Shown here: positions 2,896-56,590 of the stretch, piece by piece | Position numbering within the stretch: position 1 is the stretch's first letter | Layout of the letters: each line of letters opens with the position of its first letter | Origin: Clostridia bacterium | Lineage (GTDB): Bacteria > Bacillota > Clostridia > Oscillospirales > Acutalibacteraceae | NCBI GenBank assembly: GCA_017521425.1 | Contig: JAFXCQ010000008.1 | Coordinates: forward strand, 62,001-126,000 | Length of the DNA stretch: 64,000 nt | Direction of reading: 5' to 3' | Made by a program: the position numbers and the translations under genes | The notes under the pieces: generated by a model | What the model was told of the DNA's origin: nothing | Seen by the model: only the letters and a program-made list of their open reading frames with translations | Database searches by the model: none

Positions 2896-4530
2896 ATGAT
2901 TAAAAGCAGAATTAAAAGCGCCATAGCAGTAGTTCTTATTGCGGTTCTTGCAGTAGTTCCTATGTTCAGCGTAAACGCGGCTGCTAAAAATGTTGAATAC
3001 AGCGCCTCCTCATCTTATATGAGCAGCAGCTACTACAAGGCACTTTGTGAGGTTGAACTCACAGGTGACCAGGTAACAGATATTTGTAATATAGCAAAAA
3101 CACAGGTTGGTTATCACGAAAGTGGTGATAACTACACTGAATATGGCAGATGGTACGGCAGACAAAGCTACTGGTGTAACGTTTTCGTTTCATGGTGTGC
3201 TCATGTTGCAGGTGTTCCAACATCTGTTTTTCCTAAATTAGCAGGTGTAGGCAGTGCCTACTCTTCCACACTTCCATCAGTTGGTGCTGATTGTTTTAAA
3301 TTCGGCACAAAGCCGGTTGAACCAGGCGACCTTCTTTTCAGTTGCACTTGTTCAGGCAGCTTTGGTTGTATTGACCATGTTGGTCTTATTGTAGATGTAG
3401 ATGACCAATATATTTATACAGTTGAAGGAAATATGTCAGACGCGGTAAGAGCTATTACTTACCCTGTATCAACAGGTTATTCAGCTCACAACCATGCTCG
3501 TATCAATTATATTGCGCGTCCTAACTATCAGGACCGTTCTGCAAAAGTTTCAGATATCAGCAGAGCAGATGCTATCAAAACAACAGAAAATAGTATTTAT
3601 GCACTCTTTGATATGTCACTTCCATACAGCGAAGCAGAGTCAGTCTGCAAACTTATGGGTGGTCACCTTGTAGCAATTACAAGTGAAGAGGAGCAGGAAA
3701 TAGTAAACGAAGTTATCGAAAATGGCTCTTACGATAAGTATTACATCGGTTTATCAGATGAAGAAAACGGTACTTATCTCTGGGGTAGTGGCGAAGAATA
3801 CGATTATACTAATTTAACAGGTTCTTCAAGAGCTAATTTCAGCGCAGTTATCGTAAATGCTGATGGCACTTGGCAGGAAACTGTAAGCGATAAGAGACAG
3901 ACTGGATTTATCTGTGAAATTCAGATTGATAAAATGATTCCTGTTAATACTGCATCCTTCGGTGGTAGCAGATATGAAATTTATGACAGCTCTTTAACCT
4001 ACGAGCAGGCTACTGCATTTGCAAAAGCAAAAGGCGGTAAATTAGCAGAAATTGAAACAACCTCTGAAAATCAGCTTCTCTCACTTCTTCTTAAACAGTG
4101 CGACCAGTATTATTTAGGTGTAAGTGGTACAAAGCGCGAGGTTACTTCAATAGATTACAGTAACTATAAATCAAAGGTTAAGTATAATAACGGTAAAGAA
4201 AACTATGCTGTAATGCTTAACGATGGCACAGCAAAATGGTCTGTTGCAGGTATTTTTGAAGCAAAGACTTTAACAGGCTTTGTTGTAGAATACGATGAAA
4301 CAGAAAAATGCACAGTTACTTTCGATGCAAATGGTGGTTTAAATACACCTAATGAGCAAATTGGTGAATCAGGTGCAAAAATTGTAATCAGCGACACACA
4401 ACCAACATTAAAAGGTGCAAAATTCCTCGGTTGGTCAGAAGATAAAGATTCTAAAGAGGCAGAAATTAAATCGGGTGACAAAATCACACTCGATGAAAAT
4501 GTAACTCTTTATGCAATCTGGGCAAAATAA
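2896..4530 (+). CDS. Secreted CHAP-domain protein with two C-type-lectin-like domains and an InlB-type repeat
   Basis: Probable extracellular peptidoglycan hydrolase or amidase with binding modules, 544 residues. Residues 1-30 form a signal peptide (KSRIKSAIAVVLIAVLAVV, cleavage near NAAAK). About residues 60-215 are a CHAP/NlpC-P60-like domain: YWCNVFVSWCAHVAG supplies the catalytic Cys and CIDHVGLIVDV the His. About 230-350 and 355-465 are two C-type-lectin-like domains (MGGHLVAITSEEEQEI; KGGKLAEIETTSENQ). The last 75 residues match the Listeria-Bacteroides/InlB B repeat (VTFDANGG, FLGWSEDKD, TLYAIWAK). It stands alone between terminators, so it is monocistronic. A C-type lectin fold does not prove sugar binding; protein or glycan ligands are both possible. 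Confidence 0.85.
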   Translation: MIKSRIKSAIAVVLIAVLAVVPMFSVNAAAKNVEYSASSSYMSSSYYKALCEVELTGDQVTDICNIAKTQVGYHESGDNYTEYGRWYGRQSYWCNVFVSWCAHVAGVPTSVFPKLAGVGSAYSSTLPSVGADCFKFGTKPVEPGDLLFSCTCSGSFGCIDHVGLIVDVDDQYIYTVEGNMSDAVRAITYPVSTGYSAHNHARINYIARPNYQDRSAKVSDISRADAIKTTENSIYALFDMSLPYSEAESVCKLMGGHLVAITSEEEQEIVNEVIENGSYDKYYIGLSDEENGTYLWGSGEEYDYTNLTGSSRANFSAVIVNADGTWQETVSDKRQTGFICEIQIDKMIPVNTASFGGSRYEIYDSSLTYEQATAFAKAKGGKLAEIETTSENQLLSLLLKQCDQYYLGVSGTKREVTSIDYSNYKSKVKYNNGKENYAVMLNDGTAKWSVAGIFEAKTLTGFVVEYDETEKCTVTFDANGGLNTPNEQIGESGAKIVISDTQPTLKGAKFLGWSEDKDSKEAEIKSGDKITLDENVTLYAIWAK

Positions 4531-53923: not shown

Positions 53924-54715
53924 ATGAAAAAGAATGTAGTAAAAATCGTGATTGCAGCAATTTGCATTGTACTCGTTGCCGGTGTGTGTTTAACTTGTTT
54001 TACAGTAGTTAAAGCAGGTCACACAGGTGTAGTTTTAACTTTTGGTGCAGTTGAAGAAAATGTTTTTGAAGAGGGCTTACACTTCAAAATGCCATTGGTA
54101 CAGACAGTTGTTCAGATGAATAACCGTACTCAAAAGGTAGAAACAGAGGGTAGTGCATCTTCAAAGGACTTGCAGATTATTTCTTATGTTGTTGCAGTAA
54201 ACTACCACGTAAGAAGTGAAGCTTCTGCATCTCTTTATCAGAATGTTGGTAAGGATTATGGTACAGTAATTATTGTTCCTGCAATTCAGGAAAGCATCAA
54301 AGCAGTTACTGCACAGTTTACTGCAGAAGAGCTTATTACAAAGCGTCAGACAGTTGGCGACCAGATTAAAGAAGCATTATCTGAAAAAATCAATTCTTAC
54401 GGTATAGAAGTTGAAATTTTCAACATTGTAAATTTCGATTTCTCTGAAGAATTCAATGCTGCGGTTGAGGCAAAACAAACTGCACAGCAACAAGCGCTTA
54501 AAGCAGAGCAGGACCTTGTAAGAATTGAAGTTGAAGCTAAACAAAAAATCGCACAAGCAGAAGCGGAAGCTGAAAGCATCAGACTCATTCAGGAAGCACT
54601 TGCAAAATCACCGGATTATGTTGATTATGTTAAGTGGAACAAATGGGACGGCAAGTTACCAGAGGTTATGGGTAGTGATGGTGTTCTTGTTGATGTAGGC
54701 GATTTGGCCGAATAA
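53924..54715 (+). CDS. SPFH/prohibitin-family membrane protein
   Basis: 263 residues: N-terminal membrane helix (IVIAAICIVLVAGVCLTCF), SPFH domain (about 30-195, with AGHTGVVLTFGAVEENVF) and a coiled coil rich in Ala, Gln and Glu (about 180-228). Such proteins build ring or microdomain scaffolds in the membrane. I chose the ATG at 53924; a GTG at 53912 lies inside the AAAGGGTGG ribosome site. It has its own promoter and terminator. Confidence 0.9.
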   Translation: MKKNVVKIVIAAICIVLVAGVCLTCFTVVKAGHTGVVLTFGAVEENVFEEGLHFKMPLVQTVVQMNNRTQKVETEGSASSKDLQIISYVVAVNYHVRSEASASLYQNVGKDYGTVIIVPAIQESIKAVTAQFTAEELITKRQTVGDQIKEALSEKINSYGIEVEIFNIVNFDFSEEFNAAVEAKQTAQQQALKAEQDLVRIEVEAKQKIAQAEAEAESIRLIQEALAKSPDYVDYVKWNKWDGKLPEVMGSDGVLVDVGDLAE

Positions 54716-54743
54716 TAAATACATAAAAACAGCAAAAACCAAG

Positions 54744-54781
54744 TGCTCGTAACCATTTATAGTTACGAGCATATTTTGTTA
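54744..54781 (+). terminator. Terminator of the SPFH gene
   Basis: Perfect 10-bp stem tgctcgtaac with its complement (54744-54753, 54762-54771), 8-nt loop, tail tattttgtt. Confidence 0.88.
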
Positions 54782-54801
54782 ATATAAGCATTGATTTTTT
54801 C

Positions 54802-54830
54802 TTGACAATGTGTATAAATTGTATTATATT
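54802..54830 (+). promoter_or_regulatory. Promoter of the mgtE leader
   Basis: Consensus -35 TTGACA (54802-54807), 17-nt spacer, TATATT (54825-54830). Transcription from here gives a leader of about 260 nt before mgtE. Confidence 0.85.
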
Positions 54831-54883
54831 TATTTATGTACTTTTTATAATTTTTAAAATTGATTTTAAAGGGGGAAAAACAG

Positions 54884-54988
54884 ATGGACGCTGGCGGTAG
54901 TTGTAGTCACGCGAGAAATAAAATCCGATATTTTGGCGGTTTGGAAATAAGTGCCGAAGTGGCATCTGTTTTAGGTGTTATTGACTGA
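54884..54988 (+). CDS. Possible 34-residue leader peptide upstream of mgtE
   Basis: Starts with MDAGGSCSHARNK and ends GVID. It has a strong ribosome site AAAGGGGG at 54868-54875, 8 nt from the ATG. Its start codon lies in the 5' strand of the leader's closing helix and its stop in the second hairpin, so ribosome movement would change the RNA fold. It may be a true attenuator peptide or an accidental frame within a structured RNA. Confidence 0.45.
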   Translation: MDAGGSCSHARNKIRYFGGLEISAEVASVLGVID

Positions 54989-55034
54989 AAAATTAACATT
55001 TTTCGGTTTTGTGGCATTATGTGAATTTTAACCG

Positions 55035-55062
55035 CCGGGCAGTATGCTCGGTTTTTTTATTT
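55035..55062 (+). terminator. Attenuator-type terminator before mgtE
   Basis: 7-bp stem ccgggca / tgctcgg (one G-U, GTA loop) with a run of seven T, located between promoter and mgtE and therefore suited to conditional readthrough. Confidence 0.8.
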
Positions 55063-55100
55063 CTTAACCTGAAGGGTATATTAAGATTGGAGGTTAAGAT

Positions 55101-56453
55101 ATGGATAAAGACATTATCATAAAATTATTTGAGAAAAAAGAATATAAAGCTATAAAAAGCATTTTTGACACAATGAATCCTGTTGATACTGCTACTCTTT
55201 TACCAGAATTCGATGAAAAAGAAATGGTGCTTTTATTCAGATTGATTCCGAAAGAAAATGCTGCTATGGTTTTCACTTACCTTGAAGCAGATTCTCAGCA
55301 AGTGCTTTTAGAGGCATTTACTGATAAAGAGTTAAAGCACATTATGGATGAAATGTTCATTGACGATGCTGTTGACGTTATTGAAGAAATGCCTGCTAAT
55401 GTTGTAAGCAGAATGTTAAGTGCGGCAGGCGATAAGAGGGAAAGTATAAACCAAATTCTAAACTACCCTGAAGACAGTGCGGGTAGTATTATGACTCTTG
55501 AATACATCACACTTTTGCCTACAATGACAATTGGTGATGCACTTAAAAAAATCAAATCAATTGGTGCAAAATTTGAAACAGTTTATACCTGTTATGTTGT
55601 TGAAAAACATAAATTGTTAGGTATTGTTACTGCAAAAGAGCTTTTGACACAGGATGATAGTATTACTATTTCCGATGTTATGGAAACAAATATTATTACG
55701 GTAAATACCCACGCAGACAAAGAAGAGGTTGCTAATTTGTTAAATAAATACGACTTTTTAGCACTTCCTGTTGTTGATGTTGAAAATTGTATGGTTGGTA
55801 TAGTTACAATTGACGACGCGATGGATGTTATCTTAGAAGAAGCAGAAGAAGATATTCAGATGATGTCCGGTATTACACCTACAGATAAGCCATTCTTAAA
55901 GACATCTGTTTTTGAAATTTTCAGAACAAGAATTCCGTGGCTTTTAATTCTTATGCTTTCTTCAACCTTTACAGGAATTATTATTTCATCCTTTGAAACT
56001 GCACTTGAAAAGTTGGTTGTGCTTACTGCGTTTATTCCTATGATTATGGGTACAGGCGGTAACTCCGGTAGTCAGGCATCTGTTACAGTTATCCGTGGTC
56101 TTTCATTGGGTGAAGTTGATATTAAAGATGTTATGAAAGTTCTCTGGAAAGAATTAAGGGTTTCAATTCTTTGCGGTGTTGTAATTGCCGTTGCAACATT
56201 CTTAAAAGTTTACTTTATAGATGGTTTTGTTATGGGTACAGAAAATGTATCTTTGGTAGTTTCTATGGTTGTAGCCCTGACACTTTGCGTAACAGTTATA
56301 GCGGCAAAACTCATTGGTTGCGTTTTACCGTTACTTGCTAAAAAAATGGGTTTTGACCCTGCAGTTATGGCAAGTCCGTTTATCACAACATTAGTAGATG
56401 CTATTTCACTTTTAGTTTATTTTGGTATTGCAAAGGCATTTTTGCCTATATAA
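55101..56453 (+). CDS. mgtE: Magnesium transporter MgtE
   Basis: 450 residues: N-terminal helical Mg2+-sensing domain (about 1-125), two CBS domains (about 135-255; DVMETNIITVNTHADKEEV), a plug helix, and a five-helix pore domain (about 270-450) with the signature MGTGGNSGSQASVTVIRG. It imports Mg2+ (possibly Co2+) and is gated by intracellular Mg2+. GGAGG lies 7 nt before the ATG. Expression is probably controlled by the leader upstream. Confidence 0.95.
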   Translation: MDKDIIIKLFEKKEYKAIKSIFDTMNPVDTATLLPEFDEKEMVLLFRLIPKENAAMVFTYLEADSQQVLLEAFTDKELKHIMDEMFIDDAVDVIEEMPANVVSRMLSAAGDKRESINQILNYPEDSAGSIMTLEYITLLPTMTIGDALKKIKSIGAKFETVYTCYVVEKHKLLGIVTAKELLTQDDSITISDVMETNIITVNTHADKEEVANLLNKYDFLALPVVDVENCMVGIVTIDDAMDVILEEAEEDIQMMSGITPTDKPFLKTSVFEIFRTRIPWLLILMLSSTFTGIIISSFETALEKLVVLTAFIPMIMGTGGNSGSQASVTVIRGLSLGEVDIKDVMKVLWKELRVSILCGVVIAVATFLKVYFIDGFVMGTENVSLVVSMVVALTLCVTVIAAKLIGCVLPLLAKKMGFDPAVMASPFITTLVDAISLLVYFGIAKAFLPI

Positions 56454-56590
56454 TGATTGTAATTAGTCGAAACGCAGTTGCGTTTCGTAAAAGCCGATTT
56501 TATCGGCTTTTAGCAAAATTGTATTTCATAAACACAATTTTGCATTACAGTCATTGAAAGGAATATAGTCGAATTTTCAAAGAAAATTCG
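56452..56590 (+). repeat. Cloverleaf-like structured element after mgtE plus an extra hairpin
   Basis: The outer stem aatgattgtaat (56452-56463) pairs with attacagtcatt (56544-56555), 12 bp with one G-U. It encloses three hairpins: cgaaacgca-gt-tgcgtttcg (56468-56487), aaaagccgat-ttt-atcggctttt (56489-56511), gcaaaattgt / acaattttgc (56513-56543). A fourth, cgaattttc-aaa-gaaaattcg, lies at 56570-56590. The outer stem overlaps the mgtE stop codon. No T-run typical of a terminator follows. Confidence 0.75.

Follow-up and report, generated by a model that had tools for sequence, protein, structure and literature searches.

The window, meaning the whole 64,000-nucleotide stretch of clostridial DNA analysed here, contains a gene for an MgtE-type Mg2+ transporter, preceded by a leader in which a putative promoter, a short open reading frame (ORF), a perfect 10-bp helix and an intrinsic terminator follow one another closely (Table 1). 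The gene upstream of the leader has a terminator-like hairpin of its own (54743-54772), detected on both strands. Terminator-like sites number 4 in the interval 54600-55200, against 0.2 expected from shuffled sequences, and the folding of 54868-55065 is better than that of all 200 of 200 dinucleotide shuffles (z -3.65). Promoter-like sites are not enriched in the same interval (4 against 3.2 expected from shuffles), and because they are no commoner than in shuffles the promoter call depends on its 11-of-12 match to consensus and on its recurrence, judged by eye, in relatives, several of which within the genus have the same spacing (also by eye). Most relatives carry a stronger SD, GGAGTG or GAGGTG, than the SD-like sequence of the window leader. 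Helix P1 is perfect, by eye, in four loci of the genus (L001-L004). Several inverted repeats (cgaaacgcagttgcgtttcg; aaaagccgattttatcggctttt) were noticed by eye just 3' of mgtE, at 56460-56580 of the window.

Table 1. The mgtE leader and gene, in window coordinates
Feature	Position	Strand	Remarks
Sigma-70-type promoter, TTGACA-17-TATATT	TTGACA 54802-54807, 17-nt spacer, TATATT 54825-54830	+	11/12 consensus
SD-like purine run, AAAGGGGG-type, 5' of leader ORF	54869..54876	+	
P1, perfect 10-bp helix	54877..54972	+	AAAACAGATG 54877-54886 with CATCTGTTTT 54963-54972
Leader ORF, 34 codons: MDAGGSCSHARNKIRYFGGLEISAEVASVLGVID	54884..54988	+	stop TGA 54986-54988; homologous ORFs in L002-L017 and beyond
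Antiterminator strand A, GGCGGTT	54935..54941	+	leader codons 18-20
Antiterminator strand B, AACCGCC	55030..55036	+	overlaps terminator base
Intrinsic terminator	55034..55058	+	8-bp stem 55034-55041 with 55045-55052; T-run 55052-55058
mgtE, putative controlled gene	55101..56453	+	PF01769 (MgtE), PF03448 (MgtE_N), CBS domains

A preliminary description of this locus had already proposed the TTGACA promoter, the 10-bp helix, the terminator and the pairing of GGCGGTT with AACCGCC, and all of these are present at, or within one base of, the positions claimed; what it overlooked is the conserved 34-codon leader ORF, whose ATG start codon (54884-54886) lies inside the 10-bp helix. It had also noted that no M-box precedes this mgtE, and had suggested a search with Rfam models. 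Over the whole window this search gave no family at threshold, the best sub-threshold match in the leader being rseX (24.4 bits, where the cut-off is 50), while the M-box covariance model (RF00380) found no match in the window or anywhere in its own genome, and a known riboswitch was on these grounds rejected as the identity of the leader. Membership of a known peptide family was likewise rejected, six leader peptides having no NCBIfam or Pfam match up to an E value of 10. A leader-peptide family for Mg2+ transport genes in Clostridia was not found described in the open-access literature (bioRxiv lay outside the scope of this search).

The upstream region of mgtE was compared across a genus set consisting of the locus in the window and 16 others (L001-L017), and the leader ORF is present in all 17. 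The encoded peptide is MDAGGSCSHARNKIRYFGGL or MDSGSSCGHARNKIRYFGGL in L001-L004, and MDSGSSGHGRSS or a close variant of it in the other loci, with about 12 N-terminal residues conserved within the genus. Among 11 genus leaders, pS and pN are 0.113 and 0.022 for codons 2-12, as against 0.61 and 0.52 for codons 13-28. The low pN in codons 2-12 implies selection on the peptide, and the low pS implies that the nucleotides are constrained too; this synonymous-site constraint counts against a purely peptide-based model, which does not predict it. Conservation of the SD, of the reading frame and of the peptide together point to translation of the leader ORF.

The effect of a translating ribosome on the leader RNA was modelled in 16 of the 17 genus leaders by stepping a ribosome along the ORF codon by codon and folding the RNA left free on its 3' side. 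L006, in which no T-run terminator was found, was excluded from this set and from the A:B comparisons, and the terminator of L005 was assigned by hand to the second T-run. The readout was the probability that the terminator's three closing pairs form, a measure chosen after averaging over the whole stem had blurred the effect, because A:B displaces only the terminator base. Averaged over the 16 leaders, this probability was 0.73 for ribosome-free RNA. It was 0.20-0.33 while the P site occupied codons 5-12, reached 0.59 at codon 13, and stayed at 0.89 or above from codon 14 to codon 29. The window leader gave 0.1 for P-site codons 5-8 and 10-12, rising to 1.0 by codon 14. The step from codon 10 to codon 16, over which the terminator base passes from open to closed, was at least 0.53 in 15 of the 16 leaders (it was only 0.07 in L009), with a mean of 0.73 against -0.01 when the stretch from codon 14 to the terminator was shuffled; the step in L013 was equalled by one of 20 shuffles. 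Not every leader was open with the P site at codons 5-7: in L003 and L013 the base of the terminator remained largely paired, and in L011 and L015 it did so in part. Ribosome-free RNA favoured the terminator in 12 of the 16 leaders and was already antiterminated in the other four (L005, L010, L011 and L016). When the ribosome sits at codon 10, 13 of the 16 minimum-energy folds have strand A starting 49-53 nt beyond the A of the ATG. A ribosome at about codon 12, the point at which conservation of the peptide stops, would have its leading edge there.

Covariation of the helices in homologous leaders had been put forward, with the preliminary description, as a check on the structure, and the antiterminator helix A:B does covary; as no significant Rfam hit emerged either, the structure first described withstands both checks proposed for it. 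The two strands change together between groups of leaders, as GGCGGU/ACCGCC, CAGCGAC/GUCGCUG, CCGAUGAUA/UAUCGUCGG and CAGCGGUAC/GUACCGCUG; cognate duplexes have an energy of -15.3 kcal/mol, against -10.8 kcal/mol for exchanged ones, and none of 10,000 permutations was as good as the cognate set. The cognate partner ranked first in only three of the 16 leaders, because many leaders share A and B types, and in L013 the cognate duplex is weaker than that leader's own average exchanged duplex. Antiterminator and terminator are, as judged from sequence and predicted folding, mutually exclusive and kept so by covariation in the genus. The folding step and the covariation of A with B together indicate that ribosome position can, in silico, set the outcome at the terminator.

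The distribution of such leaders was assessed using a strict rule (an ATG start, an SD match of at least 5, 12-60 codons, an acidic residue at positions 2-4, and a location 40-400 nt upstream of the gene), applied to 118 mgtE upstream regions obtained in three fetches (30 + 28 + 60), with the pattern-fetched loci L031-L051 excluded. The rule was satisfied in 57 of the 118, whereas 50 shuffles gave 3.9 on average and never more than 9; L001-L005, which fail the SD requirement, were scored as misses, and about half of the upstream regions are without a leader by this rule. When L001-L017 are set aside the figure is 45 of 101, in which L020, a distant mgtE copy from the same genus as the window, is counted with the non-genus rest; among 402 other genes from 80 loci, taken as a control, it is 13. 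An independent pattern, ATGGANNCNGGNAGYAGY, had matches in 21 of 291 genomes of the class, six of the 21 being located before mgtE. The peptides fall into two styles, GSS...GRS (MDAGSSSGTNPDGR, MDTGGSSAVPGRSS, MDNIPGRSS) and acidic-proline (MDFDPLP, MDASPLP, MDSGPLP), the second of which resembles the enterobacterial leader peptide MgtL in carrying an early acidic residue and a proline motif. The mgtE leader of L025, CEPDPLPSPDPKKSRK, is strikingly like the EPDP/PLP of MgtL, within a leader of the GRS type. In four acidic-proline leaders (L125, L131, L137 and L123) the ORF overlaps the start of mgtE by 4-38 nt, which suggests translational coupling. At L019, FMN and SAM riboswitches lie directly downstream of mgtE (L019:2837-2970 and 3738-3838).

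The codons used at the GR motif are also distinctive. The arginine is encoded by CGA in 61 of 71 leaders, and in 48 of the 55 outside L001-L017 (counts that ignore kinship), and the preceding glycine by GGG in 37 of 61. In the mgtE-based leaders CGA accounts for 28 of 35 arginine codons at the motif, against 8 of 48 at later positions (Fisher p 7e-9, kinship again ignored). For comparison, CGA makes up 4% of the 473 arginine codons, and GGG 4.7% of the 1,088 glycine codons, in the long ORFs of the window. The window leader itself has AGA at the GR-like place, which argues against a strict need for CGA, and has CGA at codon 15. The arginine tRNA anticodons seen are ACG, TCT, CCT and CCG (30 of 36 tRNA matches having been taken as loci; of the six others, four, all of 81-90 nt, were not seen in any locus), and on this evidence the likely reader of CGA is the tRNA with anticodon ACG, which normally carries inosine at its first position. 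Codon 10 (Arg10) of mgtL in E. coli K-12 is also CGA, the same codon 10 as in most of the window's genus. In a bacterial his-leader assay CGA proved a slow codon, according to an excerpt of the published account (PMC4046918).

Comparative sequence and folding models make it probable, in our judgement, that the window leader is a leader-peptide transcription attenuator for mgtE. A ribosome held within about the first 12 codons would leave A free to pair with B, opening the base of the terminator; a ribosome that had moved past codon 13 would cover A, and the terminator would form. At low Mg2+ the ribosome would halt on the conserved first codons, or fall off them, and mgtE would be transcribed; with ample Mg2+ it would run through the leader and transcription would stop. 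The halt would probably be caused by the nascent peptide, with its acidic residue 2 (compare MgtL and mgtQ), aided in most relatives by the slow pair GGG-CGA. Stalling fits the genus better than pure drop-off, because ribosome-free RNA mostly terminates. That low Mg2+ would hold the ribosome back we infer from the identity of the genes under control and from what excerpts of the literature say of MgtL, corL and mgtQ. The leader probably responds to low Mg2+ through its translation. In the published analogues, so far as the excerpted accounts go, a leader that is poorly translated at low Mg2+ switches a Mg2+ transporter on (PMC11282234, PMC11552253, PMC8092293).

The low synonymous divergence of codons 2-12 could alternatively mean that the RNA of these codons is itself the aptamer of a metal-binding riboswitch that merely overlaps a short ORF and needs no translation, and both the conserved GGG-CGA-AGT wording and the better-than-chance fold of the leader would agree with this. 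Yet the SD, the start codon and the reading frame are all retained, the third bases of the glycine and serine codons around CGA vary, relatives of the PLP type with quite different RNA still keep an acidic leader ORF, and an Rfam match is absent, so that we regard such a riboswitch as unlikely. The preliminary description had suggested a riboswitch, possibly of a new class; this was not supported, since what homologous leaders share is an SD followed by an apparently translated ORF, a segment of which is complementary to the terminator base, with no aptamer-like core. The sensor is more likely to be the translating ribosome than an RNA aptamer.

The genes that follow such leaders were surveyed by a pattern scan (an SD followed by codons for MDxG(S/G)(S/N), one genome per species), which matched at least 120 stretches, most of those listed coming from Clostridia. 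Among the 120 matches listed, mgtE homologues lie downstream in 76 (52 in the first 80 and 24 in the further 40, which agree with the first 80). MgtA-type ATPases follow in 27, of which nine were recognised by tblastn and 18 by NCBIfam models (TIGR01524/NF011702); 16 of these 18 pass the TIGR01524 cut-off, and the incomplete genes of L162 and L207 fall below it. There is one instance of mgtC then mgtA (L213), one truncated P-type ATPase N-terminus (L195) and one corA (L255, Trichococcus palustris); in L255 a short remnant of a P-type ATPase N-terminus, scoring below the Pfam cut-off, separates the leader from corA (L255:7157-7999). The downstream sequence is too short in three (L155, L230 and L240). 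The remaining 11 (L149, L158, L178, L181, L189, L192, L202, L235, L243, L249 and L258) are without a Mg transport gene, most of them falling inside long ORFs or coming from distant groups, proteobacteria among them. Five matches are doubtful, namely L145 and L174 (mgtE far downstream), L211 (leader overlapping the gene), L245 (leader frame continuing into the gene) and L252 (from Nitrospira, with the ATPase at a distance of 1.2 kb). The mgtA or corA cases include Phascolarctobacterium faecium, Trichococcus palustris, a Coriobacteriia and a Propionibacteriaceae genome. Independently of the pattern, the strict rule was satisfied in 10 of 23 mgtA genes of the class, of which L302 and L305 are unconvincing, and L295 and L296 are near-identical. 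The attenuator layout and the link to Mg2+ that had been proposed for the window leader are borne out.

These neighbours also bear on whether the leader might answer to some other stress on translation than Mg2+, such as a scarcity of charged tRNA (Gly, Ser or Arg) or a ribosome-targeting drug. The layout is that of an amino-acid attenuator, and the genus leaders are rich in glycine and serine and contain a slow arginine codon; but, apart from the 11 of 120 without one, a Mg2+ transport gene lies downstream in 106 of 109 listed stretches, the other three being unreadable, and the styles are united by the transport gene and an acidic residue near the start rather than by any single amino acid, which leaves this alternative quite improbable. 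That the ORF encodes a small protein acting in trans, for example on the transporter, is scarcely credible: the N-terminus is indeed conserved, with a low pN, but conservation covers only about 12 residues, the remainder being free to change (pN 0.52), it stops at the predicted switch codon, and ORF and terminator covary.

Leaders of these styles also occur alongside the M-box, which is present in 66 of the 291 genomes of the class. Of 20 mgtE loci scanned for it, 11 had been picked for a known M-box near mgtE, and those 11 hold one; in nine of them (L100, L114, L119, L125, L127, L131, L134, L136 and L137) a leader ORF of these styles is situated between the M-box and mgtE, as judged by eye, and L104 and L074 are M-box loci without a leader ORF. 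Five of the nine tandem leaders satisfy the strict rule, and L114 is without an early acidic residue. Such tandems possibly combine two Mg2+ sensors in one leader.

By our own rule, a T-run terminator is present in 13 of 99 leaders outside the genus, and the case for a terminator version is confined to the window's genus; elsewhere the output either differs or was missed. A general switch by SD sequestration outside the genus was considered and rejected: in leaders without a terminator, mean SD accessibility is 0.28 when ribosome-free, 0.22 with the ribosome at the motif, and 0.21 with it at the stop codon (n=81, 81 and 69, respectively). In L147, L153, L171, L200, L201, L206, L212, L018 and L055, codons 4-6 (GGAAGTAG) can pair with TACTTCC, shortly before the SD of the gene. 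As TACTTCC is also able to pair with that SD, a translational output is possible in this subset, as a lead only. Pairing runs of this type of at least 7, with G-U allowed, were found in 53 of 78 leaders, against a shuffle mean of 53.5, which is no excess; Watson-Crick-only pairing within 76 nt of the gene was found in 10 of 78, against a mean of 2.8 in shuffles (maximum 8) and of 6.0 with permuted partners (maximum 11). These pairing tests covered leaders that begin M[DE]xG, less near-duplicates and L144, L158 and L211.

So far it is in enterobacteria, chiefly with mgtA, that Mg2+ sensing through leader translation has been elucidated. If the leaders described here work likewise, the principle would be widespread in Clostridia, acting on unrelated transporter families, and in some species would operate behind a Mg2+ riboswitch; the many natural peptide variants would allow one to ask which features of nascent chain or codon make translation sensitive to Mg2+. 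A bolder proposal, which we offer as speculative and rather doubtful, is that Clostridia have their own ribosome-based Mg2+ sensor, in which an acidic nascent peptide of about 12 residues and the conserved rare pair GGG-CGA, with CGA read by an ACG (inosine-type) tRNA, would make elongation past codon 12 dependent on Mg2+. Such a module would control mgtE, mgtA, mgtC and corA, replacing the M-box in some lineages and stacking behind it in others, and would have acidic residue 2 and the codon-10 CGA in common with enterobacterial MgtL by convergence or deep ancestry.

Several known systems invite comparison. The M-box (RF00380) is also a Mg2+-linked leader of mgtE, in many Bacillota, but is an RNA aptamer. 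In Mycobacterium tuberculosis an M-box is likewise followed by a conserved upstream ORF, uORF2, with a conserved proline; in the excerpted account, however, its actinobacterial peptide is described as mycobacteria-specific (PMC12810186). The ilvB uORF of Corynebacterium resembles the model proposed here in that ribosome position selects antiterminator or intrinsic terminator, and differs, in the portion of the source available, in being enriched in amino acids of the pathway, whereas the window leader precedes an ion-transport gene (PMC11109978). The 'mgtE motif' of Thioalkalivibrio also lies upstream of mgtE, but by its description in part of the same source it is a structured RNA, reported only in Thioalkalivibrio, with the SD and start of mgtE in a stem (PMC11109978). 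In mgtQ, of the Salmonella mgtCBRU operon, Asp2 and Glu5 are said, in extracts from the report, to destabilise the ribosome, raising transporter output (PMC8092293). Like the window leader, mgtQ has acidic residues in a short ORF linked to a Mg2+ transporter; it differs, according to the same extracts, in having eight codons, in being intergenic and in acting on the translation of mgtB via its RBS (PMC8092293).

The closest parallel is with MgtL, which precedes mgtA in E. coli and Salmonella and whose translation, as summarised in excerpts of the published work, decides mgtA transcription (PMC11282234, PMC11552253). In both cases an SD-bearing short ORF, with an acidic residue at position 2, is located between a promoter and a Mg2+ transport gene, although that gene is mgtE in the window. 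MgtL has an EPDP/PLP motif, whereas the window peptide has Asp2 and no proline in its conserved part; and MgtL acts on a Rho-dependent terminator, whereas the window has an intrinsic terminator and a covarying antiterminator. Because the window leader departs from MgtL in these two features, the proline motif and the type of terminator, it is not classed as MgtL. It is read instead as an attenuator that operates in the manner of MgtL, with a different peptide and with termination of the intrinsic type.
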